A model generated the notes under the pieces. It saw only the letters and a program-made list of their open reading frames with translations. It did no database searches and was not told the DNA's origin. Positions 213 to 37,531 of a stretch of 37,532 nt of DNA are shown piece after piece. Position numbers and translations under genes: made by a program. Source of the stretch: a virus; IMG/VR virus record IMGVR_UViG_3300030329_004521, positions 1 to 37,532 of that record; one strand, 5' to 3'. Within the stretch, counting starts at the first letter, position 1. Each line of letters opens with the position of its first letter.

Positions 213-221
213 TGTGAATAA
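213..221 (-). promoter_or_regulatory. DnaA-box match (TTATTCACA on minus strand)
   Basis: The plus strand reads TGTGAATAA, a perfect match to the relaxed DnaA-box consensus TTATNCACA in reverse orientation. It faces the matching box at 454-462 across the octamer array. About one such match is expected by chance in a genome this size, so two within 250 bases of non-coding DNA is notable. Confidence 0.45.
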
Positions 222-259
222 ATCTGCTCTGAAGGGCAAAAAGGTCGTTGTGTACAAGT

Positions 260-411
260 ACTGACAAATCAGTTGTCAGTACTGACAAACATTTGTCAGT
301 AGTTACTGACAACTGACAACTGACAACCCCCCCTTTAGGGGGGGGTTGTCAGTTGTCAGTAGGTACTGTCAGAAGTGTCAAATTTACTGACAAACCCAAA
401 AAGTTGTCAGT
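260..411. repeat. Cluster of 11 ACTGACAA/TTGTCAGT octamers
   Basis: ACTGACAA starts at 260, 281, 305, 312, 319 and 386. Its complement TTGTCAGT starts at 273, 293, 346, 353 and 404. They form nested inverted pairs: 260/273 (5-base gap), 281/293 (4-base gap), the tandem groups 305-326 versus 346-360, and 386/404 (10-base gap). A diverged copy (ACTGTCAG) is at 365. The density and mixed orientation suggest a multi-site binding platform for one dimeric protein, such as an initiator, a repressor or a packaging protein. Confidence 0.9.
312..360. repeat. Long perfect-stem hairpin within the octamer array
   Basis: Two ACTGACAA copies plus a C7 tract pair with a G8 tract plus two TTGTCAGT copies around a TTTA loop, giving a stem of about 21 base pairs. 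A stem this long and G/C-rich could extrude as a cruciform, stop transcription entering terL, or be a structure recognised at an origin. Confidence 0.85.
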
Positions 412-453
412 GAATAAGTCTGCTCCAGAGGGGCATTTTAGCCCTTGCTGGAA

Positions 454-462
454 TTATTCACA
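454..462 (+). promoter_or_regulatory. DnaA-box match (TTATTCACA)
   Basis: Perfect match to TTATNCACA, 20 bases before the terL start codon and overlapping its leader. A near-match (AGTGAATAA, 8 of 9 in reverse orientation) is at 409-417. Confidence 0.45.
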
Positions 463-2533: not shown

Positions 2534-4444
2534 ATGGTAAAAGGGGGTTCACGCAGGGATTTAGCGGGTGCTATATTTTCAGACCTGAAAGATCGAGTGA
2601 CTTGGGATTCGCGTCAGTCGATGTTTTACCGGATGCGCCATAATGGTTTGCGGCGGAAGAGCAAACCGTGGCCTGGGGCGTCAGACGCGCACTTCCCGTT
2701 GAGCGACACCATCATTGAGAAGCTCAAGCCTTATTTTTTCCAGCAGTTATTTGCCACGGATCAGGTGGCGCAATTCACTCCGATTAAGGGGGATGCACTG
2801 GTTTATGCAACTGGTTCGGCGCAATGGTTTGATTACCAGTTGAAGCAGAAGTCAAACCTTGAAAAGGAGATTTTGGCGGCGATTGACTCGATGCTGACTG
2901 GTGGGCGCGGGGTGATGAAGGTTTTCTGGGGGGACAAGGGGTCATCCTACAAGGGCGACGGCAAGGGGTTGGTGTATCAGTCTATTGACCCGCAGCACAT
3001 CATTGTGCCCGCATGGACGACAAAGCTGGAGGATGCTGATCGCATTGTGCATGTGCAGAATTATTCTCAGGAAGGTTACCGGCGCAACAAGTTGTTCAAG
3101 CAGGGCGACGATTTTATTCGGCGCATCACGGGTGAGGGCGACAGCAAGAAGGGCGACCTTGAGAAGCGGCAGGACATGTACCGTCGCGAGGGGTTGACCT
3201 TTAACCAGGATGACTCGATCTGTGTGTGGGAGACTTGGACAAGGGACGAGAAGGGCAAATGGTGGTGTGAAACATTCAGCCCGCTGGAACCCGAGGTGGA
3301 CATTCGTGAACCCTACCAGTTGCCGTATAAACATGGAATGCCGCCTTTCTGTGCCTTTGAGTACGAGGTGAAGGATCAGCGTTGGTATTCGCCGCGTGGC
3401 GTGTGCGAGATGGTTGCGGTGCATGAGGCTGAGTTGTGCAAGTTGATGAACGAGAAGAACGACTACATGACAATGGTCAACCGTCCGTTGTTTCGTTCCG
3501 CGCGCGAGATACCCAATGCTGCAAATTTAAAATTTAATCCCGGCCAGATTCTTCCCTTTGACATTCAGCCGGTGCAGATGCCGCAACCACCCATTAGTTT
3601 TGACCAGTCCTTGGTGCAGGTGCGGGACTTGGCCGAGCAGAGGGTGGCGACTCCTGACTTTGGGTTGTCGCAGACCTTCAGCGTGCAGGAGCGCCGCACG
3701 GCGACGGAGATCAATGCCATTGGCCAAATGTTTCATCAGTCGAGCGACCTGCGTTTGCGGGTGTTCCGCATGGGCCTCAATCAGCTTTATCGGATGAGTT
3801 GGGATTTATTGGTGCAGTATGCGGCTGACGACCTGAACTACTGGTTTGTGGATGACGCGGGTGAACTGGACGTGGATGCGCTGCGTGAGGAGTACGACAT
3901 CAAGCCCAGTGGCAGTGCGGACGGGGTGAACCGTGCGTTTATCTATCAGCGTGCATTGAATCGGTTCCAGATGATGGCAGGCGACCCGTTCATTGATCAG
4001 GGCGAGTTGCGCAAGAGCATTCTTGAGGCGGACGACGTGGCGCTGGTGAAGCGCCTGTATCGTGATCCTGAGTTGAAGATGGCGGATCAGGCAGAGGATC
4101 AGGCCAACGAGATCACGTTCCTGCGCCTTGGTTTTCCGGCAGTGGTAAAGCCAACTGACGACCATGCCACGCACATTCGCACGATCATGGGGTACATGCA
4201 GATGAGTGCGCAGACGAATCGTCAACTTGAGGCAATGGAGATGCAGCGTTTACAGGAGCACATTCAGTCCCACTTGCAGTTGTTGCGTGAGCAGGACTCG
4301 AAGGCAGCAAAGGCGATTGAGGCTGAGTTGCAGGAACTTTCAGCCGCCGCGCGGCGAGCGCAGCAACCTCCCGACGCGCCTGGGGGTTTGGGCGTTGATG
4401 CGGGCAATGAAGTAATGAGCGGGGAGGTATTGAGTGCTGCGTAG
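2534..4444 (+). CDS. Portal protein
   Basis: 636 aa. The dodecameric ring at the capsid vertex through which DNA enters and leaves. The sequence resembles podovirus-type portals of P22-like length: a polar N-terminus with an RQSMFYRMRHNGLRRKSKPWPGASDAHFPL segment, a central wing/stem region with an NEKNDYMTMVNRPLF helix, a conserved ERRTATEINAI stretch near residues 385-395, and a glutamine-rich C-terminal coiled region. It lies directly between terminase and the scaffold/coat genes. The ATG at 2534 is chosen over the TTG one codon upstream; no strong Shine-Dalgarno is visible. Family is assigned by pattern and context. Confidence 0.85.
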   Translation: MVKGGSRRDLAGAIFSDLKDRVTWDSRQSMFYRMRHNGLRRKSKPWPGASDAHFPLSDTIIEKLKPYFFQQLFATDQVAQFTPIKGDALVYATGSAQWFDYQLKQKSNLEKEILAAIDSMLTGGRGVMKVFWGDKGSSYKGDGKGLVYQSIDPQHIIVPAWTTKLEDADRIVHVQNYSQEGYRRNKLFKQGDDFIRRITGEGDSKKGDLEKRQDMYRREGLTFNQDDSICVWETWTRDEKGKWWCETFSPLEPEVDIREPYQLPYKHGMPPFCAFEYEVKDQRWYSPRGVCEMVAVHEAELCKLMNEKNDYMTMVNRPLFRSAREIPNAANLKFNPGQILPFDIQPVQMPQPPISFDQSLVQVRDLAEQRVATPDFGLSQTFSVQERRTATEINAIGQMFHQSSDLRLRVFRMGLNQLYRMSWDLLVQYAADDLNYWFVDDAGELDVDALREEYDIKPSGSADGVNRAFIYQRALNRFQMMAGDPFIDQGELRKSILEADDVALVKRLYRDPELKMADQAEDQANEITFLRLGFPAVVKPTDDHATHIRTIMGYMQMSAQTNRQLEAMEMQRLQEHIQSHLQLLREQDSKAAKAIEAELQELSAAARRAQQPPDAPGGLGVDAGNEVMSGEVLSAA

Positions 4445-23933: not shown

Positions 23934-24081
23934 TCCCCCCGCCAAACCGTTCGTGCTCGCCCTCATGCAGACTGCCGACAGTATGTCAGCGTGAAAAGGG
24001 CGAGCGCCACGGCCATCAACTGGAGACACTGGAGCATCATGGTTAAAATTCCCCTCACAACTCATTAGACGCTGCAACCTT

Positions 24082-24107
24082 GCTAACGGTTTTGCTAACA
24101 GGAAGGG
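24082..24107. repeat. 26-base direct repeat flanking attP, copy 1
   Basis: Contains TTGCTAAC, 4 bases, then TTGCTAACA, followed by GGAAGGG. The same 26-mer recurs exactly at 24326-24351 on the other side of the tRNA-like core. Paired sites around a phage attachment core are typical of integrase arm-type binding sites. Confidence 0.85.
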
Positions 24108-24114
24108 TGATTAT

Positions 24115-24144
24115 TCCTGATCACTCCTGATCACTCCTGATCAC
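24115..24144. repeat. Three tandem TCCTGATCAC decamers
   Basis: TCCTGATCAC repeats perfectly three times with a period of 10 bases, one DNA helical turn, so each unit presents the same face. Each unit contains the palindrome TGATCA. It lies between the left arm repeat and the attP core, a place where excisionase or accessory proteins bind in other phages. Confidence 0.9.
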
Positions 24145-24219
24145 TTCCAAGGAGAGTTTCGCATCGGTGAAATAGGGGAAAGTATGGTTTTACCGAGGGA
24201 AAGTGAAAGGGCGTAGTTG

Positions 24220-24267
24220 TGACTACGGATCAGGAGGTTTGAGGTTCGACTCCTCATGCGCGTGCCA
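24220..24267 (+). other. attP: attP core: 3' half of tRNA-Arg(ACG)
   Basis: From 24223 the sequence folds as the 3' half of a tRNA: anticodon loop CTACGGA (anticodon ACG at 24225-24227), stem TCAGG, variable loop AGGTT, T-stem TGAGG/CCTCA around TTCGACT, acceptor strand TGCGCGT, discriminator G and CCA (24265-24267). The 5' half is absent: bases before 24220 do not complete the anticodon stem. This is the signature of an attachment core carried by a phage that integrates into a tRNA gene and restores its 3' end. The integrase gene ends 96 bases away. The host attB should be a tRNA-Arg(ACG) with this exact half. Confidence 0.85.
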
Positions 24268-24325
24268 TTTAACTCCCTGTTTCTCAACAACTTCCAAGCC
24301 CACAGTTTTTGTGGCAGTTTTTACC

Positions 24326-24351
24326 GCTAACGGTTTTGCTAACAGGAAGGG
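24326..24351. repeat. 26-base direct repeat flanking attP, copy 2
   Basis: Exact copy of 24082-24107, 59 bases beyond the attP core and 11 bases before the integrase stop codon. Probable arm-type site. Confidence 0.85.
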
Positions 24352-24362
24352 GCTGGAAAAAA

Positions 24363-25445
24363 TCAGCCTTCGAGCGCCACGTCGGGGGTCGGGTCAGCGT
24401 AGAAACGGTCAGTCGTAGAGATGTCTTTGTGACCGAGGAGGTGTTGAGCCGCGTGCAAGCCTGCGATCTTGGATACCTCCGAGCCGAAGTGGCGACGTAG
24501 TTCGTGCATGCGCTTGTTGGAGTGTGTCCACCCCTTGCCGGACAACCAGGCATTGAGACGGTCAGGGATTTTTTCCGCGCGTGCGGTCTTGGGGCCATCA
24601 AGCAGATAGCCGGTGCGCCCCTTGGTGAGTTGACGCACCTCATGGTATACATCGGGCGCGAGCTTGATTTCCCGTTCGGTGGAATTTTTGGTGTCGAAAT
24701 CTCCATCAGGCTGAATCTCGATGGAATGATCCCCGAGCCACTCCATGCGTGCATTGGCAATCTCACTGCGCCGCATCCCTGCGAAGAAAGCCAAAAGGAA
24801 CATGAGATATGCTTCCCGGTCATTCACTCGCAACTCAGTTCTGGCGGCAGCAAGGGTGCGCGCCGCCAGCCCCCTGTCCCTTGGTGCCTTGTAGCGCACG
24901 CGCGGGCCATTCTCAACTTTTCGGGTGATGAAATCCTGAATGCACGGCGGCAATTGAATATCCTTGTCTGCGAAGCGTTGCAGCATCAACGCGGAGAAGA
25001 CGGACTTGGCTTGGCGCACCGTTGAAAAAACGGTTCGCTTGGCGGCGTGCATGGCTTTCACTCCAATGGTTTTTTTCTGGCGAATTTTTTCAAAATCAGA
25101 GAGCAGGGCACCGTTCAGCACGGTGATGGGTTGTTGATCGGCATCCTCCCCAGTCACTTCCCTGACGATCAGGCGCATGCTATTGGCATTGGACTTGATG
25201 CTCGCAAGGCGAATACCGGCAAGGGCTTCGTAGTGCTCAAGCAGTCTGCCAATGGTGATGACCCGTGAGCGCCGCAGTCGCAGTCTCTCGGCGTCAGTCC
25301 AGCGCCCCTCACGCAGGCGCGTGAAGTATTCCTTCGCCCGCTTTCGGGCAGTGGGCTTATCCGCCGAGCCGGTGGCAAACCACTTCTGATGACCGTCCAC
25401 CCGAATGACAGCACTGTAATGTTTCCCTCGCTTGATAAGCGTCAT
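24363..25445 (-). CDS. int: Tyrosine recombinase integrase
   Basis: 360 aa from ATG 25445 (MTLIKRGKHYSAVIRVDGHQKWF, a typical arm-binding N-terminus); a TTG at 25520 would add 25 residues. A core-binding domain spans about 75-170 and the catalytic domain follows: Arg in FFAGMRRSEIANA, Lys in the DTKNSTEREIKL hairpin, HELRRHFGS (H-x-x-R), LLGHKDISTTDRFY with the second His and nucleophile Tyr. All catalytic residues are present. It faces attP and ends just beside it. A TGTCTATAC sequence like the 26009-26033 operator lies 29 bases upstream of the ATG (25474-25482, minus strand). Confidence 0.92.
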   Translation of the reverse strand: MTLIKRGKHYSAVIRVDGHQKWFATGSADKPTARKRAKEYFTRLREGRWTDAERLRLRRSRVITIGRLLEHYEALAGIRLASIKSNANSMRLIVREVTGEDADQQPITVLNGALLSDFEKIRQKKTIGVKAMHAAKRTVFSTVRQAKSVFSALMLQRFADKDIQLPPCIQDFITRKVENGPRVRYKAPRDRGLAARTLAAARTELRVNDREAYLMFLLAFFAGMRRSEIANARMEWLGDHSIEIQPDGDFDTKNSTEREIKLAPDVYHEVRQLTKGRTGYLLDGPKTARAEKIPDRLNAWLSGKGWTHSNKRMHELRRHFGSEVSKIAGLHAAQHLLGHKDISTTDRFYADPTPDVALEG

Positions 25446-25562
25446 GGCGACGGCATACTGATTGCGTCGATATGTATAGACAAGTCTTTTTTGAGTTTGA
25501 TGTATTTTTTTTATTGCCAACTTGTTTGAGGCTCTTAAAAATTACACGCAACTCATTTGGGC

Positions 25563-26040: not shown

Positions 26041-26208
26041 GTGCGTAAGGAGAACGGTGCGAAGAAGGAGTTGACCGCCTTCCGGCTGAGACGGGATTGC
26101 CGGAAATATCTGCGGCGACACGCGACCAAAAACCAAACGACCATGACTGCGGTCTTGGAGTCCTTAATTCTGGAGCACTGCTCTCCGGCAAAGGCGAAAC
26201 AACAATGA
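26041..26208 (+). CDS. Second ribbon-helix-helix-like small regulator
   Basis: 55 aa from GTG 26041: VRKENGAKKELTAFRLRRDCRKYLRRHATKNQTTMTAVLESLILEHC... The order LTAFRLRRD (strand), CRKYLRRHAT (helix A), NQTTMTAVLESLILEH (helix B) matches an RHH domain. No Shine-Dalgarno is visible, and the proposed promoter starts 1-3 bases upstream, so translation may be leaderless. Its stop overlaps the ATG of the next gene (ATGA). Confidence 0.6.
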   Translation: MRKENGAKKELTAFRLRRDCRKYLRRHATKNQTTMTAVLESLILEHCSPAKAKQQ

Positions 26209-26489
26209 ACCCGAGGAGTTTCCTGAAGCTATTCACCCGCACGGAGGCGGCAGAACTGTTGCGCGTCTCAAAGCCGACAATAGACCGGATGCGCCGCCGT
26301 GGCGACCTGGACACCGTGCATCCGGTGGGTGGTGCCCCGAGGATCACCGAAGAGTCCATCCGTCGCGCAACGTGCGTCAAGGTGGTGTTGGCATTCCTGA
26401 TTTTAGCCCACCTATTACTCTTCATAAAAACTCAACCAAAGGAGGGCGTTGCCGCCCCGCGACCCTCCCGTGGTGCGGCAGCCAATTAA
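26205..26489 (+). CDS. HTH protein with C-terminal transmembrane segment
   Basis: 94 aa. Residues 9-55 form an excisionase/MerR-type winged helix (LFTRTEAAELLRVSKPTIDRMRRRGDLDTVHPVGGAPRITEESI). Residues about 58-75 (VKVVLAFLILAHLLLFIK) are a clear membrane helix, followed by a short polar tail. A membrane-tethered HTH of this size is unusual; it might repress or bend DNA at the membrane, or the hydrophobic part might pair with another protein. A role as excisionase is possible from the domain and the location near int. The start is fixed by the ATGA coupling. Confidence 0.7.
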   Translation: MNPRSFLKLFTRTEAAELLRVSKPTIDRMRRRGDLDTVHPVGGAPRITEESIRRATCVKVVLAFLILAHLLLFIKTQPKEGVAAPRPSRGAAAN

Positions 26490-26493
26490 AATC

Positions 26494-26838
26494 ATGGACA
26501 TCAAGCAGGAACAATTCGAGTTGCCGGGGATGCCACAACCCGTGCCCGAGCCAATCGCCGAGGATGTACGGATGCTGCGCGAATATCTCGACCATCGTGG
26601 ATGGGTATTGGCCAAGCAGATCAAGCAGTCACTGGGGTGGGATGAGCGCACGGTCAGGGCGGTTGCTGCTGCCTCCCGTGGGCATGTGATCTCAGGCCAA
26701 CAGGGTTACCGGCTCACCAAGCAGGCACCCGATGACGAGGTACAGCATGCAGTCAACTGGATGCGCTCGCAGGCGAGGAACATGACGCTGCGCAGCGACG
26801 AAATAGAGTGTGTTCGGCGGGGGAGTGCATGGGCCTGA
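26494..26838 (+). CDS. Winged-helix-like early protein, unknown
   Basis: 114 aa from ATG 26494; a TTG at 26449 follows AAAGGAGG but with only 3 bases spacing, so the start is uncertain. Residues 28-75 (DVRMLREYLDHRGWVLAKQIKQSLGWDERTVRAVAAASRGHVISGQQGYRLTK) have a wHTH layout; the C-terminal helix region ends near ECVRRGSAWA. It is the first gene of the replication/recombination block and overlaps the next by 10 bases. DNA binding is inferred. Confidence 0.6.
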   Translation: MDIKQEQFELPGMPQPVPEPIAEDVRMLREYLDHRGWVLAKQIKQSLGWDERTVRAVAAASRGHVISGQQGYRLTKQAPDDEVQHAVNWMRSQARNMTLRSDEIECVRRGSAWA

Positions 26839-27197
26839 AGAGTCGCCAAAAAGGGAAGCGGGGCGAACGGGCGTGGGTGAGGTTTCTGCGCGAAGAAGGA
26901 GGTCTGGACGCGCGCCGTGGACTCTCCCAGAGCGGAGGTGCAATCGAACCGGATGTGGTCTGTAGCGATGTGGACTTTTTACACTTCGAAGTGAAGGTGG
27001 GCAAACGGCAACCCAACCTGTCGGACGCAATGAGCCAAGCCAAGCGAGATGCGGGGCAGAAGGTGCCCGTCGTTGCGCACAAAAAGGACTTTGATGGCTG
27101 GATGATCACGCTGCCTGCCGAGGAATTTTTATCCCTCATCTTGGGCGATTTGCCCGACGAAAAAGAAACCCCAAAAGAAGGAAGTAGAAATGACTAA
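26829..27197 (+). CDS. PD-(D/E)XK nuclease, Holliday-junction-resolvase-like
   Basis: 122 aa. The catalytic frame is visible: KGKRGERAWVRFL (Glu13), RRGLSQSGGAIEPDVV (Asp42), FEVKVGKRQ (Glu54 and Lys56), then a helix with QAKRDAG. This order is shared by archaeal Hjc-like resolvases and phage relatives that resolve branched DNA before packaging. GGGGGAG precedes ATG 26829. Adjacent to the SSB-like gene, supporting a replication/recombination role. Confidence 0.75.
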   Translation: MGLKSRQKGKRGERAWVRFLREEGGLDARRGLSQSGGAIEPDVVCSDVDFLHFEVKVGKRQPNLSDAMSQAKRDAGQKVPVVAHKKDFDGWMITLPAEEFLSLILGDLPDEKETPKEGSRND

Positions 27198-27810
27198 TGA
27201 CCCGTTAATACTCGAATACAAAGCCGAGGCGGATTTTCAACCGTGCCCATCAGGCGACCATAAGGCCGTGCTGGTGGACGTGATAAAGTCCGATCAGGAG
27301 CCATCGTTCTATGGGCCAAAAGACCACGTTTATCTGGTCTTCGAGTTGGAAGCCGAAAAAGATAATGGATTCCGGTGGACGCTGAACTATCGAGCAACAG
27401 CAAGCATGCACCCGAAAGCCAACCTCAACAAGTTCCTCGCGAAATGGCGCGGGAAGGCGATTGAAAAGGGAGAAAAAATCAACATGCGCTCCCTGATCGG
27501 CAAGTGCTGCATACTCGAAGTTGAACATACCGAGGGAAATGATGGACGCACATGGGCGAACATAGATCGCGCACGGCCATTGACAAAGGCCCAGTGGATA
27601 AAGCCGAAAGGCGAATACGACGGGGAACGTGAGCGGCAACGCATCACCGAGCGGGTTGATAAACGCCGCCAAATGGACGGGTACACCTCGGACGATGAAC
27701 CTGCCGTTGTAGCGTCAGACCCCCCTGGGGCGATCAAGCAGTCCGAGAAAAAGAAACCCGAGCCGGTGTTGATCGAGGTGGACGATGACGCCGATGACGT
27801 ACCCTTTTAA
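27190..27810 (+). CDS. Single-stranded DNA-binding-like protein
   Basis: 206 aa. Strand-rich core (HKAVLVDVIKSDQEPSF; DHVYLVFELEAEKDNGFRWTLNYRATASM; GKCCILEVEHTEGNDGRTWANIDRARPL) like the OB-fold phage SSB/DUF669 type. The C-terminus is acidic and ends EVDDDADDVPF, strikingly like the DDDIPF tail that bacterial SSB uses to recruit partners. It would coat single strands and dock nucleases or primase. Start overlaps the nuclease stop by 8 bases; the two are coupled. Confidence 0.75.
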   Translation: MTNDPLILEYKAEADFQPCPSGDHKAVLVDVIKSDQEPSFYGPKDHVYLVFELEAEKDNGFRWTLNYRATASMHPKANLNKFLAKWRGKAIEKGEKINMRSLIGKCCILEVEHTEGNDGRTWANIDRARPLTKAQWIKPKGEYDGERERQRITERVDKRRQMDGYTSDDEPAVVASDPPGAIKQSEKKKPEPVLIEVDDDADDVPF

Positions 27811-28036: not shown

Positions 28037-28352
28037 AAACCTATCCGCGTATCGTTGCCTGCTGGCAGGAGTCCTGTTGCAGGCGCTGGAGGATTACCAG
28101 TGGTTGCGCAACAAGGGCTGGATCGTGAATGGCGAGATTCTCGACTCACGACCAGACAAGAGAATGAACCATCACTGGACGGGAACAAATGAACTGCGCG
28201 AATTGCAAATGTTCATCTTCGGGCGTGGATGTGAATTATTCATCGACCTCGGCGACCTCGACTTTAACGCGGACTTGTTGCGCCAAAAATGCGAACCGCA
28301 CTACTGGAGCGAACTAAAGGAGAAGAACAACAAAAAATGTCAACCACACTAA
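28023..28352 (+). CDS. Unknown early protein
   Basis: 109 aa. AYRCLLAGVLLQALEDYQWLRNKGW and ELRELQMFIFGRGCELFIDLGDLDFNADLLRQKC resemble a common short phage family in which a helix is followed by an FxxLCEL..DPD-like C-terminus; its function is not known to me. It overlaps the small membrane protein and the following nuclease-DnaA fusion gene (16 bases), so all three are translated together. Confidence 0.6.
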   Translation: MQSNENLSAYRCLLAGVLLQALEDYQWLRNKGWIVNGEILDSRPDKRMNHHWTGTNELRELQMFIFGRGCELFIDLGDLDFNADLLRQKCEPHYWSELKEKNNKKCQPH

Positions 28353-29422
28353 TTACGCCCAAAAACGACTCCCATCTTTACACCGCAAATGGCGAGGCAA
28401 TGCACACTATCATCGGAAAGAATGGCAAGACGCGAAAGACCACATTGGCGGATGCCCGCAAGCTGAATCTATTCTTCTCGGTGACATCCATCCTCAAGCT
28501 GATCCACAACCCGTTTTTGGAATCGTGGAAAATTAACACTGCAATTCTGGCAGCACGCACGCTGCCCAAGAAGGACAATGAAAGTGAGGAGGAATTCGTG
28601 ACGCGCGTCATCGAGGACTATGGATCGACCAGTCGCTTGGCGATGGAATTCGGGTCAAGCATCCACAATGACATTGAGCGGATAAACCTCGGGAAGGCAG
28701 CGCTTAACGCGAAGATCGCAGAATACATCGAGAAGTATATCGAGTGGAAAGAGGAACGGATCGGCAAGGTGCTGGCGGCGGAACAGGTGGTTGTTAATCA
28801 CGATCACGGTTATGCGGGCACACTGGATTTGCATGCCGTCCACAAGGTGCATGGGCCGGTGGTCATTGACTTCAAGACCCAGGCAATCCGGCAGGGGCGC
28901 GAGCCGAATTTCTACGAAAATTTTCCGCTGCAACTGGCTGCCTATCGCGAGTGTCTGCCGGATAAACCAAGGTGCTTGTCGGTGGTGATCAACTCCACAT
29001 CGCCGGAATTGCCCCATGAAAAACTATGGAATGAAGAGGCAATCGAGAATTCGTGGCTGCAATTTTTCCATGCCAACAGGTTGTTCCAGTTGAAAAAAAA
29101 CTATAAGCCGGAATGTTCCCTAGCCGACAAGTCGCCCGCCGAGATGGCGCGGGTTGTCACGGAAGCGGCGGCGGAGGTGTTCGACGTGACTCCGCGCGAA
29201 ATCCTCGGACGACGTCGCAAGGAGCCGATAGTGACTGCGCGCCAAGTAAGTTACTACCTGCTGCGCAAGTGCGGACTGAAATACGAGAGGATAGGGGAGG
29301 TATTCGAGCGCGACCATGCTGCCGTGATCCACGGGTGCAAGCGCATCGGTGATTTGTCCGAGGTGGACAAGAAAATGAAGATCGCCGTCTGCCGACTCGA
29401 AAACATGGTGATGGCAACATGA
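28337..29422 (+). CDS. RecB-like PD-(D/E)XK nuclease fused to a DnaA domain IV
   Basis: 361 aa from ATG 28337. Residues 40-260 have the RecB/Cas4-type nuclease frame: GSSIH (His110), GTLDL (Asp164), VIDFKTQ (Asp178, Lys180) and QLAAY (Gln199, Tyr203). Residues about 275-357 match the DnaA C-terminal DNA-binding domain: AAEVFDVTPREILGRRRK, TARQVSYYLLRKC, then the signature-like ERDHAAVIHGCKRI at 324-337, where bacterial DnaA has GRDHTTVLHACRKI. The RDH part is kept, the two Thr are Ala. No AAA+ domain is present, so it cannot initiate as DnaA does. It may target a nuclease to DnaA boxes or to origins. Confidence 0.85.
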   Translation: MSTTLITPKNDSHLYTANGEAMHTIIGKNGKTRKTTLADARKLNLFFSVTSILKLIHNPFLESWKINTAILAARTLPKKDNESEEEFVTRVIEDYGSTSRLAMEFGSSIHNDIERINLGKAALNAKIAEYIEKYIEWKEERIGKVLAAEQVVVNHDHGYAGTLDLHAVHKVHGPVVIDFKTQAIRQGREPNFYENFPLQLAAYRECLPDKPRCLSVVINSTSPELPHEKLWNEEAIENSWLQFFHANRLFQLKKNYKPECSLADKSPAEMARVVTEAAAEVFDVTPREILGRRRKEPIVTARQVSYYLLRKCGLKYERIGEVFERDHAAVIHGCKRIGDLSEVDKKMKIAVCRLENMVMAT

Positions 29423-30487: not shown

Positions 30488-30670
30488 ATGAAAACTGAAC
30501 AACAACGCAAGCGATGCCACCAGTGGCAGGAGTTCCAGTGCCACTCGAAGGCAAGCAAGCTGAAAGCTGCGCGTGAGCGGATCGTGGGGCAGGTTATTCG
30601 CAAGGAGATCAGCATTGACGAGGGGTGCATCAGAGTGCGGCAGCTTGAGGAGGAAAATGAATGTGGATAG
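30488..30670 (+). CDS. Small basic helical protein upstream of methyltransferase
   Basis: 60 aa: MKTEQQRKRCHQWQEFQCHSKASKLKAARERIVGQVIRKEISIDEGCIRVRQLEEENECG. A very strong GAGGAGGAG precedes the start. Its last 14 bases overlap the methyltransferase start. No motif is recognised; it may help translate the downstream gene by coupling. Confidence 0.6.
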   Translation: MKTEQQRKRCHQWQEFQCHSKASKLKAARERIVGQVIRKEISIDEGCIRVRQLEEENECG

Positions 30671-31748
30671 TTCCAAGACAATTACTCATCTCAGTCTCTG
30701 CACAGGGTACGGAGGCATTGACATTGGACTCAGAAGAGTTCTCCCAACTTGCAGAACAATCGCTTATGTGGAGATCGAAGCCTTCGCCTGCGCGAACCTG
30801 GTCGCAAAGATGGAAGCGGGTGAACTGGATGCGGCACCTATCTGGACGGATCTTAAAACCTGCGACTGGGAAATCTTTCGTGACCGAGTGGATATCCTCA
30901 GCGGTGGATATCCGTGTCAGCCATTCTCAGCAGCAGGGCAGCGAAAAGGAAAAGAAGACCCCAGACACCTCTGGCCATTTATACAGAGGGCAATTGGACT
31001 TATTCGTCCGAGATACTGCTGGTTTGAGAATGTCGAAGGGCATCTTACCCTCGGCTTTAAAGACGTGTGCCACGACTTGGGAGAGTTGGGTTACGAGCTT
31101 ACGGCAGGAATATGCAGTGCGGCTGAGTGCGGCGCAAGTCATCAACGCAAACGAGTTTTCATCTTGGCCCACCGCATCGGCGCGGGATTGGAAGGGTTGC
31201 TATGTGACGCTAAAGCGGAAGGACGGGAAGATGCGGGGCGACTTGCTGCCCGATGCAGTGAACATCGAAGAGAATGGCCCGCCCGACCAGGCGAACCCCA
31301 ACAAGAGTGGGAAGAGCCAAGAGTCGTGGCCGACGCCAAGGGCGGGGAATCCAGGCACCAGAAAACCGGGGACGGGCGGGAAAGTGCTGTCGGAACAAGC
31401 TCAACAGAATTGGGCGACACCGCACGTTCCAAATGGCGGCCAAACGACATCGGGGAGCAAGGACAAGAAAACGAAAAAGCAAATTCAACTACAGCATCAA
31501 GTGCAGAACTGGCCGACGCCGAGGAACATGACCGGAGGCACTTGCAAGAACGGAGCGAAACACTGCGATCTGAACAGCAAAGCCGGCGGCAAATTAAATC
31601 CAAGCTGGGTCGAACAACTGATGGGATTGCCGGTGGGCTGGACGCAACTGCCAACCGAGTGGATCGCCTCCGCCTTCTCGGAAATGGAGTCGTCCCCGCC
31701 ACCTGCGAAGTAGCTTTTCGGACATTGTATGAGGAGTTAAATCCGTGA
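30657..31748 (+). CDS. C5 cytosine DNA methyltransferase
   Basis: 363 aa, complete. Motif I is LSLCTGYGGIDIGL (residues 12-25), motif IV is GGYPCQPFS with catalytic Cys87, motif VI is ENV (124-126), motif VIII is ASHQRKRVF (160-168), and motifs IX/X are NRVDRLRLLGNGVVPATCEVAF (333-354). The target-recognition part (170-330) is low in structure and has VADA, LGDT and LADA repeats. It probably protects phage DNA from host restriction; no partner nuclease gene is adjacent. AGGAGG ends only 3 bases before the ATG, a short spacing. A second open frame runs along nearly the whole gene. Confidence 0.92.
   Translation: MNVDSSKTITHLSLCTGYGGIDIGLRRVLPTCRTIAYVEIEAFACANLVAKMEAGELDAAPIWTDLKTCDWEIFRDRVDILSGGYPCQPFSAAGQRKGKEDPRHLWPFIQRAIGLIRPRYCWFENVEGHLTLGFKDVCHDLGELGYELTAGICSAAECGASHQRKRVFILAHRIGAGLEGLLCDAKAEGREDAGRLAARCSEHRREWPARPGEPQQEWEEPRVVADAKGGESRHQKTGDGRESAVGTSSTELGDTARSKWRPNDIGEQGQENEKANSTTASSAELADAEEHDRRHLQERSETLRSEQQSRRQIKSKLGRTTDGIAGGLDATANRVDRLRLLGNGVVPATCEVAFRTLYEELNP
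30661..31713 (+). CDS. Overlapping frame inside the methyltransferase, WPTP-repeat protein
   Basis: 350 codons, frame +1 relative to the methyltransferase, beginning 4 bases after its ATG and 7 bases after the same AGGAGG, the better spacing. Its C-terminal half carries SWPTASARDWKG (residue 169), SWPTPRA (223), NWATPH (251), NWPTPR (284) and LNPSWVEQLMGLPVGWTQL (312-330), which I recognise as recurring in phage proteins annotated as methyltransferase-related. The four W-x-T repeats coincide with LAHR, VADA, LGDT and LADA of the main frame. Long shadow frames are common in this genome, so expression is unproven. Confidence 0.45.
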   Translation: MWIVPRQLLISVSAQGTEALTLDSEEFSQLAEQSLMWRSKPSPARTWSQRWKRVNWMRHLSGRILKPATGKSFVTEWISSAVDIRVSHSQQQGSEKEKKTPDTSGHLYRGQLDLFVRDTAGLRMSKGILPSALKTCATTWESWVTSLRQEYAVRLSAAQVINANEFSSWPTASARDWKGCYVTLKRKDGKMRGDLLPDAVNIEENGPPDQANPNKSGKSQESWPTPRAGNPGTRKPGTGGKVLSEQAQQNWATPHVPNGGQTTSGSKDKKTKKQIQLQHQVQNWPTPRNMTGGTCKNGAKHCDLNSKAGGKLNPSWVEQLMGLPVGWTQLPTEWIASAFSEMESSPPPAK

Positions 31749-31910: not shown

Positions 31911-32150
31911 ATGAAATCAAGACCAGCATTAAGACCAATACATCCCGCGCGTGCCGAGATGGAAGGAATGCTGCCCCTGACAACCCCCTACAAGCTGCCC
32001 GAGGAGGCGCGACTGCTTGTGCGGGCGCTCGACGACCTTGAACGCGGAGGAATCAGTCATGCATTGGTGAAGGAAAAAGGGTGTGATGATGTTGGCGAGA
32101 AATTTGAAGGAGTAACAATTTGGCGTGGATATAGATCAACTAAAAAATGA
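31911..32150 (+). CDS. Small unknown protein before primase-helicase
   Basis: 79 aa from ATG 31911: MKSRPALRPIHPARAEMEGMLPLTTPYKLPEEARLLVRALDDLERGGISHALVKEKG... Its end overlaps the primase-helicase start by 26 bases. No clear ribosome site; a downstream Met (31959) is an alternative. Function unknown. Confidence 0.5.
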   Translation: MKSRPALRPIHPARAEMEGMLPLTTPYKLPEEARLLVRALDDLERGGISHALVKEKGCDDVGEKFEGVTIWRGYRSTKK

Positions 32151-34077
32151 ACTGCCGCTTCCAGATTTAATCACCCGTTTGGGTTACCCAGAGGAGATCA
32201 TCAGGAAATCGGCGCGTTGCCCGTTTCACGACGATTCAAACCCGAGTTTTGGGGTATGGGAATCCGATGGGCGCTGGAAGTGGAAGTGTCATGCCGGATG
32301 CGGAGGGGGCGATGAACTCGACTTCATCGAACGCGCACTGGCACTTGACCGAAAGGGGGCGCTTGCCGAGTGGAAACAACTCGCCGGAGATGAGCCAGCC
32401 GTCATCGACTGGTCTGAACCCGTTCCCAAGATAGACTGGGCGGCAGCAGTATCCGCCTTTCCTGAATCATGGAAGGAACGCCTCGCGGAAAGGCGAGGAT
32501 ACAGCAAAAAATTTACCAATTGGATGGTCGATAACCATCTGGTGGGCACCGTCGATGGGCAACTGGCCTTTCCAGTCGTCCATGCGCCAAAACCAACGAA
32601 CCCACGCCAAATGGGCCAGGTAGACGGTGCCCACCTTTTTTCTGAGAAAGGTTGGCGGGTTAAGGGGGGCAAAAATTCACCGTGGTTTATCGGTGAACAC
32701 CCGGATGTGCTCCTCGTATTCGAGTCGCAATGGGACGCATTCGCGTTCATGGACGTTTCCGACTGGGCCGAGCAGGGAAGCACCATGTCCTCCATTCTCA
32801 TCACGCGCGGCGCATCAAACGGCAAGAAACTCGACGGGCTGATCCCACAACGCACCCGCGAAATGTACCTGTTCACCCAAAAGGACGAGGCAGGACACAA
32901 GTGGGAAGCAGATATAGCCAAAATCTTCCGAAAGGCAAAGCGCATCGAGATGCCTGAGCCGCACAATGATCTCAATGACTGGACTCGCAGCGGTGCCACG
33001 ACAGGCGACCTCCAAAAATGCATCGAGACAGCAAGGCGCGTGCATGAACCCAACCTCCCTGAACCCTATGGATGGCAGGATTTACTCTCCTTCAAGCCAA
33101 CCGAGGACAACAACTGCCTGCTGGGAAATCGTTGGCTGGGAAAATCAGGTTCGTGCGTGTGGATAGGCCAATCCGGCCTTGGAAAATCAGTCCTGACAAT
33201 TCAAGCCGCCATGACGTGGGGAGCAGGACAACCGTTCTTTGGCATCCGCCCGCACAAACACCTCTCAAGCCTCATAATAGAGGCTGAGAACGACTTCGGC
33301 GACGTTGCTGAGACTGTGCAGGGGGTAAATCACGGGATGGCTGAGACAGCCGCTCAGGTCGATTTAACGCAATCACAGGGGAATGTGAATATAGTGCGCG
33401 TTGTAAACAAAATGGGACTGGATTTTGTGGCTTTAGTGACTGACATGGTCGCTGAGTATCAGCCTGACATGCTCTGGATCGATCCACTGCTGTCTTATCT
33501 CGGCGGAGACGCCAATTCGCAGGAGGATGTGGGCAATTTCATAAACGCACTTGGAGAATTGGCGCTCAATACCGGCACACTCCTGCATATAATCCATCAC
33601 ACCGGCAAACCAAAGACAGGACGGGACGCCGCACACTCTTCAGTCAATGACCTTTCCTACGCAGGTCTGGGTTCGTCAGTGCTCACCAACTGGGCAAGGG
33701 CAATCATGGTCTTGCAAGGCGTGCGCGGGCATGACGATATCTTCCAGTTGACCGCTGCCAAACGGGGGCGACGTGCCGGTTTGCGCCTGCCGGATGATGA
33801 TTTTGCCAGTCAATCAGTATACGTCGAGCATGCACCCGTAGGACTCTGCTGGATGCCCTCGGCTTTCGTTCACGAAGAAAAAAACAACAAACGCAGCGAA
33901 GTCCCAGGTGATCTCATCCTGCGCTTGGCCCAGGAACATCCGGTCAGTGCATGGAAATTGGCATCCATCGTCGCAGAAGAGGCAAAAGTAAGCCAGCGCA
34001 CGGGACATCGGCGCATCAAGGAAATGTTGGCAGTCAATTCCCTCATCGCGCGCGATGGAATTATTGTTGCCAACTAA
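32125..34077 (+). CDS. Primase-helicase fusion (CHC2 zinc finger, Toprim-like, RepA-like ATPase)
   Basis: 650 aa from GTG 32125. Residues 31-55 hold a CHC2-type zinc finger (CPFHDDSNPSFGVWESDG, then CHAGCGGG) for primase. Residues about 195-295 are Toprim-like (LLVFESQWDAFAFM, LFTQKDEAGHKW). Residues 345-560 are an AAA RecA-like ATPase: GQSGLGKS Walker A, MLWIDPLLS Walker B, HIIHHTGKP, and DLSYAGLGSSVLTNWAR. A C-terminal winged helix (LASIVAEEAKVSQRTGHRRIKEML) ends the protein. It should unwind DNA and prime synthesis. No DNA polymerase gene was seen in the window, so the host polymerase is probably used. Confidence 0.85.
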   Translation: MDIDQLKNELPLPDLITRLGYPEEIIRKSARCPFHDDSNPSFGVWESDGRWKWKCHAGCGGGDELDFIERALALDRKGALAEWKQLAGDEPAVIDWSEPVPKIDWAAAVSAFPESWKERLAERRGYSKKFTNWMVDNHLVGTVDGQLAFPVVHAPKPTNPRQMGQVDGAHLFSEKGWRVKGGKNSPWFIGEHPDVLLVFESQWDAFAFMDVSDWAEQGSTMSSILITRGASNGKKLDGLIPQRTREMYLFTQKDEAGHKWEADIAKIFRKAKRIEMPEPHNDLNDWTRSGATTGDLQKCIETARRVHEPNLPEPYGWQDLLSFKPTEDNNCLLGNRWLGKSGSCVWIGQSGLGKSVLTIQAAMTWGAGQPFFGIRPHKHLSSLIIEAENDFGDVAETVQGVNHGMAETAAQVDLTQSQGNVNIVRVVNKMGLDFVALVTDMVAEYQPDMLWIDPLLSYLGGDANSQEDVGNFINALGELALNTGTLLHIIHHTGKPKTGRDAAHSSVNDLSYAGLGSSVLTNWARAIMVLQGVRGHDDIFQLTAAKRGRRAGLRLPDDDFASQSVYVEHAPVGLCWMPSAFVHEEKNNKRSEVPGDLILRLAQEHPVSAWKLASIVAEEAKVSQRTGHRRIKEMLAVNSLIARDGIIVAN

Positions 34078-37433: not shown

Positions 37434-37531
37434 CAGCCGTGGCCAGAGCCAGGGCCAGGGGCTTGTGCCAGCCATGCCGATTGCGGGACGGGAGGGGGCA
37501 CCCATATAGGGGCGGGGGGGTATTCCCTCCC
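37434..37531. repeat. Terminal direct repeat, right copy
   Basis: Identical to 1-98. A 16-mer (GGGGCTTGTGCCAGCC) within it at 37458-37473 also occurs 35 bases earlier at 37423-37438, just outside the repeat, forming a two-copy tandem array at the junction. Confidence 0.9.

Follow-up and report, generated by a model that had tools for sequence, protein, structure and literature searches.

Human MGME1 prefers single-stranded DNA, can process flaps and loses its activities when the conserved PD-(D/E)XK lysine is replaced (K253A); when MGME1 itself is lost, the 5' ends of 7S DNA in the mitochondrial origin region are incompletely processed (PMC4222359). In the DnaA protein of Escherichia coli, R399 and T435 are important for the binding of DnaA boxes (PMC5742627, PMC7561715), and the T435M protein is defective in box binding (PMC5742627). 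The nearest precedent that we saw for a DNA-processing enzyme bearing the DNA-binding domain of DnaA (domain IV, Pfam Bac_DnaA_C; DnaA_C below) is provided by the Y1 (HuH) transposases of subclass 2.1.2, which have a C-terminal Bac_DnaA_C-like tail that, according to the authors, could target the enzyme (PMC6006769). The titles and abstract openings of the open-licence papers retrieved yielded no fusion or pairing of a nuclease with DnaA_C. Phages also encode DnaA_C as a stand-alone protein; we know of no role assigned to these proteins, and none appeared in the titles and abstract openings of the open-licence papers retrieved on DnaA and phages.

The DNA analyzed here, referred to as the window, is a whole virus record of 37,532 bases. 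A previous reading, made from the sequence alone, had proposed that a single gene in this window joins a phage nuclease to DnaA domain IV, and this was borne out. The gene is one stop-free ORF, and a Shine-Dalgarno-like stretch of -8.4 kcal/mol is present upstream of its start codon. In the 361-residue translation, Pfam places Bac_DnaA_C at residues 274-337, with 67.5 bits (cut-off 31.5) and an E value of 1.1e-18, and residues 45-210 match PHROG 298, annotated as “exonuclease” (E 3.8e-22). The nuclease model PDDEXK_1 scored 20.7 bits, slightly below its Pfam cut-off of 22, and 26.5 bits for the relative at locus L035. The AAA+ domain III of the full DnaA initiator is absent, as Bac_DnaA_C and PDDEXK_1 are the only Pfam matches at E values up to 1. 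Every part of the protein belongs to a known family, and the new fusion itself is very probably real. The features discussed here are listed in Table 1.

Table 1. Positions of the fusion gene, its parts and other features in the window.
Feature	Position	Strand	Remarks
Fusion gene	28337..29422	+	361 aa, stop-free ORF; MGME1-like exonuclease + DnaA domain IV
Nuclease part, residues 1-261	28337..29119	+	PHROG 298; invariant H110, D164, D178, K180, Q199, Y203; MGME1 fold, Z 17.9
DnaA domain IV part, residues 262-361	29120..29419	+	Pfam, separate model, Foldseek, box-contact residues
Old gene junction	29100..29122	+	Out-of-frame ATG left, no ribosome-binding site
RusA-like / PDDEXK_15 resolvase	26808..27197	+	PHROG 244, E 2.1e-17; PDDEXK_15 24.1 bits against a cut-off of 27; same operon as fusion gene
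SSB-like protein, DDVPF tip	27190..27810	+	Same operon as fusion gene; counterparts in relatives; PHROG 862 (function unassigned)
C5 cytosine methyltransferase	30573..31748	+	Counterpart directly after DnaA_C in relatives, e.g., L035, L031
Primase-helicase	32125..34077	+	CHC2 zinc finger, Toprim-like stretch below cut-off, RecA-like AAA_25
Cluster of DnaA-box-like sites, terS-terL gap	213..462	.	Candidate binding region

Human MGME1 was the top fold match of the nuclease model by a clear margin (Foldseek E 6e-9). In the VIA comparison, MGME1 obtained a Z score of 17.9 over 194-197 residues against 12.2 for RecE, the next different protein, followed by a putative exonuclease (11.0) and by Cas4, AdnAB and Dna2 (about 10-11). 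Moreover, MGME1 was the only match in the PDB of a profile built from 39 nuclease rows (E 6.5e-12); a profile of five rows gave nothing at E 0.1, and a phmmer search of the PDB with the single fusion protein returned DnaA chains and no nuclease at E 1. The motifs H, D, D-x-K and Q-x-x-x-Y line up with those of MGME1, and the six catalytic residues that the sequence-only reading had named (Table 1) are invariant in 39 of 39 rows, including that of the window. K180 lines up with the lysine of the MGME1 D-x-K motif, from which we infer that it occupies the position of MGME1 K253. The enzyme had been described as RecB/Cas4-like. Its membership of the RecB family of PD-(D/E)XK nucleases stands, but the likeness to Cas4 does not. 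Cas4 requires four conserved cysteines for its iron-sulphur cluster, and no cysteine is present in the invariant or near-invariant columns of the 39 rows; Cas4 is therefore a poor name for this nuclease, for which MGME1 is well ahead. The fold and the invariant residues point to catalysis, and the phage nuclease is predicted to be an MGME1-like single-stranded DNA exonuclease.

The full-length model, built from the 39-row alignment, was confident for the nuclease and had pLDDT values below 50 in long stretches of the DnaA part, because in that alignment this part is covered by the window sequence alone. The DnaA fold was therefore judged from a separate model. Residues 262-361 modelled alone adopt a helix-turn-helix fold (mean pLDDT 94.5), whose best Foldseek matches are the DNA-bound DnaA domain IV structures of Mycobacterium tuberculosis (3pvp) and E. 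coli (1j1v), with TM scores of 0.85-0.90. Thus, both the DnaA_C match and the helix-turn-helix on which the sequence-only reading had staked its claim were found. Most positions contacting the box are kept: R294, R302, Q303, D326 and H327 correspond to R399, R407, Q408, D433 and H434 of E. coli DnaA, and A328 and A329 are present at the positions of T435 and T436 (for R407, Q408 and T436, we take this E. coli numbering to be that of the box-contact positions). Since the T435 position is an alanine, and DnaA T435M binds boxes poorly, the DNA target of the fusion protein may differ. The fused DnaA_C domain scores higher than the DnaA_C proteins of six relatives (21.7-63.3 bits, the lowest being truncated by a contig end), showing that it is not decaying; DnaA_C of another phage group reaches 73.8 bits. 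Of 17 records labelled “Bacteriophage”, the eight examined (L170-L177) were rejected as phage relatives, because they hold DnaA-like proteins of 414-472 residues that contain the preceding domains and are probably bacterial DnaA.

The record ends share a repeat of 98 bases (positions 1-98 and 37434-37531, compared by eye), so the genome is probably complete and the contig can probably be joined into a circle. TerL, a major head protein, a primase-helicase, a RusA-like resolvase and an integrase (24363-25520) are encoded in the window, and on this gene content the phage is a temperate, tailed one; the nearest named relative of its TerL is that of an Akkermansia phage (39.2%). Rfam (gathering threshold) and tRNA scans of the window gave nothing. 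The SSB-like neighbor with a DDVPF tail that had been reported earlier is indeed present in the operon of the fusion gene, to which the resolvase, the methyltransferase and the primase-helicase also belong. It matches no Pfam family, and it is called SSB-like because of the acidic DDxPF tip and the position of its gene within the operon.

Several repeats were observed elsewhere in the window. At 254-411, within the terS-terL gap, ACTGACAA / TTGTCAGT occurs at least nine times, in both orientations, together with a G/C-tract stem, and GACAAAAC repeats are present in or beside the primase-helicase-terS gap of contigs G007, G026 and G020. These GACAA-type repeats near terS are a candidate for a separate packaging or origin site, not tied to the DnaA part. 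Direct GCTAAC repeats are located at 24080-24351 and about 37390, by the integrase gene, one 26-base repeat being present twice in exact form; TGCTAACA repeats are common to the window, G007, G026 and G020, and the two kinds of repeat are candidate integrase arm sites. In addition, TCCTGATCAC is present as three tandem copies at 24108-24145. Finally, positions 1980-2150 and 26184-26411 match the same ORF of G011 and G022, and as the second stretch is excisionase-like, two related genes of the excisionase type may be present in the window.

Scans of viral and genome contigs with the fusion protein as a single query gave no relative, and neither did its DnaA_C part alone in viral sequences. Relatives were obtained with TerL and then with an alignment of the nuclease; the alignment-based scan of genome contigs gave none, and there was no match in plasmid sequences. 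The TerL search resulted in 22 related environmental contigs, seven of which contain matches to the fusion protein. Five of these (G006, G007, G011, G015 and G022) have the nuclease and DnaA_C as two adjoining ORFs, and DnaA_C alone was matched in the other two (G012 and G020). Nuclease rows and DnaA_C rows were aligned separately; a joint alignment misplaces the latter. With the nuclease alignment, 187 viral loci were found, the best 80 of which were examined using our own HMMs. The sequence-only reading had called for a search for the same domain order in other phages: none of these 80 loci is fused, and what close relatives have are separate neighboring genes. DnaA_C is located closely behind the nuclease gene in 13 of the 80 loci. 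In 12 of these, the nuclease gene ends in a four-base overlap with the start (ATG or GTG) of DnaA_C, and in the thirteenth (L051), one small ORF (1791-2030) lies between the two genes with ATGA coupling on both sides, as judged by eye. The 13 coupled contigs appear to represent about five lineages. A DnaA_C-like ORF is located 2.8-3.8 kb away in another six loci (that of L047 scoring below the Pfam cut-off), and none was seen in the sequence examined of 61 of the 80, an absence that means little because many of the 80 are short fragments; the 61 loci suggest that the nuclease family does not need DnaA_C. When the Pfam model was applied to whole records, a DnaA_C match was obtained in 14 of 50, 13 of them above the cut-off.

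The pairing is not restricted to one type of nuclease. In G020 (IMGVR_UViG_3300030329_005906), whose TerL is 66% identical to that of the window, a PolB-type DEDD exonuclease gene (L032, 1806-2558 on the minus strand; PF10108, E 1e-9) replaces the PD-(D/E)XK nuclease gene and overlaps the DnaA_C gene by four bases. Because the pairing outlasts this exchange, it suggests a link between DnaA_C and exonucleases rather than chance adjacency. In the phage group of loci L179-L185, a YqaJ-type nuclease is encoded about 0.8 kb downstream of DnaA_C (checked with Pfam in L179), and ORFs similar to the L179 nuclease are present in at least four of these seven loci. In phage C72C1, the genes preceding DnaA_C are Sak and SSB genes, in phi18:3 they are methylase genes, and at L186 the DnaA_C protein (3974-4411) has a TniB/AAA-type ATPase gene nearby. 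These contexts, which come from few independent lineages, suggest, without proof, that DnaA_C is linked to DNA-end processing irrespective of the nuclease family.

The reading that we favor, with a confidence a little short of even, is that the window contains a real fusion of two operon neighbors, in which DnaA domain IV holds an MGME1-like exonuclease at DnaA-box-like sites of the phage. We infer that the MGME1-like half acts on single-stranded DNA, where it would trim the flaps and ends arising as the phage primase-helicase replicates the DNA. Domain IV would bind DnaA-box-like sites in the phage DNA and so tether the exonuclease to chosen places, most likely the cluster in the terS-terL gap, and in the relatives two separate co-translated proteins would form an equivalent pair. 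A real, though minority, chance belongs to the possibility that DnaA_C is an independent DNA-binding regulator or origin marker, for instance one that loads the primase-helicase or controls early transcription; the gene overlap would then serve co-expression, and the fusion would be a tolerated accident. The stand-alone DnaA_C genes of phages without an adjoining nuclease, the six loci with a distant DnaA_C-like ORF and the ease with which overlapping genes fuse all speak for such independence, whereas the persistence of an exonuclease partner through the change of nuclease family in G020, the direct coupling in 12 of 80 loci and the good conservation of the fused domain argue against it.

If the favored reading is correct, the phage DNA may contain binding sites for the DnaA part, of the DnaA-box form TTWTNCACA. 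Exact matches to TTATTCACA are present in the window at 213(-) and 454(+), and sites with one mismatch at 249(-) and 409(-), all within 250 bases. We compared the clustering of such boxes in 20 contigs, of which G015, G038 and G056 are not whole, with that of 559 permuted motifs. As strong a clustering was obtained for two of the 559 permuted motifs in the window and for none in G023 and G015, which form one lineage. In the remaining 17 contigs (five with coupled DnaA_C, one with distal DnaA_C, two found by TerL only and nine with the nuclease and no DnaA_C found), at least 212 of the 559 do as well. Dinucleotide shuffles reached the observed score in 0 of 4000 and 1 of 4000 cases, for regions that had been picked after looking at the scores. 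The place of the cluster differs between the lineages, being the terS-terL gap in the window and the int-xis region in the other, and there is no cluster in G007, G011, G022, G026 and G020, all of which have a coupled DnaA_C. A conserved phage origin with boxes was considered and rejected, because relatives do not keep the boxes that lie upstream of TerL. The residue at the T435 position is alanine in both lineages with a cluster and glycine in the five others without one, some of which have further changes; this may be a hint. Binding of DnaA boxes by the fusion protein is plausible, and unproven because most relatives are without a cluster; host DnaA could be the real binder of the boxes in the window.

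Three functions had been offered by the sequence-only reading: processing of the phage origin, attack on or silencing of the host origin, and the making of recombination ends. The data fit best with a nuclease that processes phage DNA at sites resembling DnaA boxes, because the gene belongs to a replication operon and the window has the box cluster at 213-462; the making of recombination ends is possible. Bacterial origins carry DnaA boxes at high density, and the equivalents of R399, R407, Q408, D433 and H434 are kept, as would suit a takeover of the host in which domain IV brings the nuclease to oriC or other host DnaA boxes and replication of the host is blocked or damaged. We consider this improbable: the genes of the operon serve replication and recombination and not takeover, the integrase marks the phage as temperate, and the phage DNA itself has a box cluster. 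Moreover, MGME1 prefers single-stranded over double-stranded DNA (PMC4222359), so cutting of duplex oriC by an MGME1-like enzyme is not expected.

The favored reading also requires that the two genes are truly joined. At the place where DnaA_C of the relatives starts, the window has an out-of-frame ATG, and a frame shift of a single base separates the fused state from the split one. The separate DnaA_C genes have Shine-Dalgarno sequences of -9.5 to -12.1 kcal/mol in 14 of 14 cases (the 13 coupled loci and G020), against -0.7 kcal/mol for the old ATG of the window and -0.2 kcal/mol for the next in-frame ATG; a value of -0.7 kcal/mol or better is found at 78.5% of 3000 random places. Among the 26 other starts listed for the window, 11 are also weak, with -3.2 kcal/mol at best, and this number includes an alternative start of the fusion gene; the missing Shine-Dalgarno sequence is therefore support rather than proof. 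A comparison with eight relatives revealed no frame break in other conserved genes of the window: of the 246 ORFs of relatives that had hits, counting shadow frames, none gives two frames. The junction pattern has no second record among the viral contigs searched, a set that may omit records near the window. In the nuclease tree, the window forms a long branch beside, and outside, a supported clade of coupled pairs (96/92); the set holding the window and this clade has a support of 95/91, with long rows placed unsurely. It is improbable that the phage has two overlapping genes joined in the record by one indel of assembly or sequencing, as could be imagined from the single base between the states, the ATG still at the right place, the split state of all 13 relative pairs examined and the one record from which the fusion is known, since the internal starts have no Shine-Dalgarno sequence and none of the 246 matched ORFs shows two frames. 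Thus, a genuine gene fusion is the likelier account of the window, and an assembly error of one base the less likely one.

The conserved gene pair underlies the fusion and is the more interesting finding. Together, the two provide a concrete partner for phage DnaA domain IV. A broader reading, which is rather doubtful at this stage, is that DnaA domain IV serves phages as an address label for exonucleases: MGME1-like end trimming would be guided by boxes to the phage origin, by a coupled pair in close relatives and by one polypeptide here, and the label would be kept while the nuclease fold changes (PD-(D/E)XK, DEDD and possibly YqaJ). If true, this would show a way for a phage to keep an exonuclease at the origin of its own genome, and would constitute a phage parallel to mitochondrial MGME1 beside a primase-helicase.

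Among the known systems, the Y1 transposases share the layout of a DNA-processing enzyme with a C-terminal tail, but their catalytic domain is unrelated and their flanking repeats are unlike DnaA boxes (PMC6006769). The stand-alone DnaA_C proteins of Cellulophaga phage phi18:3, phage C72C1 and Microcystis phage Mvi-Yong1342-1 have the same domain, with replication, recombination or methylase genes near, and differ in being separate proteins. The phage exonucleases of PHROG 298 belong to the same sequence family as the nuclease half, and that of MW202674 is encoded in an operon with SSB and Erf genes; the three annotated relatives are, however, 238-262 residues long and show no DnaA_C in the stretches of DNA examined. 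With domain IV of E. coli (1j1v) and M. tuberculosis (3pvp) DnaA, the fusion protein shares the fold and most box-contact residues, whereas it is without the AAA+ domain, has alanines at the T435 and T436 positions and is joined to a nuclease. To our knowledge, MGME1 has no DnaA domain. It resembles the nuclease half in fold, profile match and motifs, and both have a primase-helicase and an SSB-like protein as companions; the difference is that here the gene is that of a phage, with an activity that is predicted from the model.
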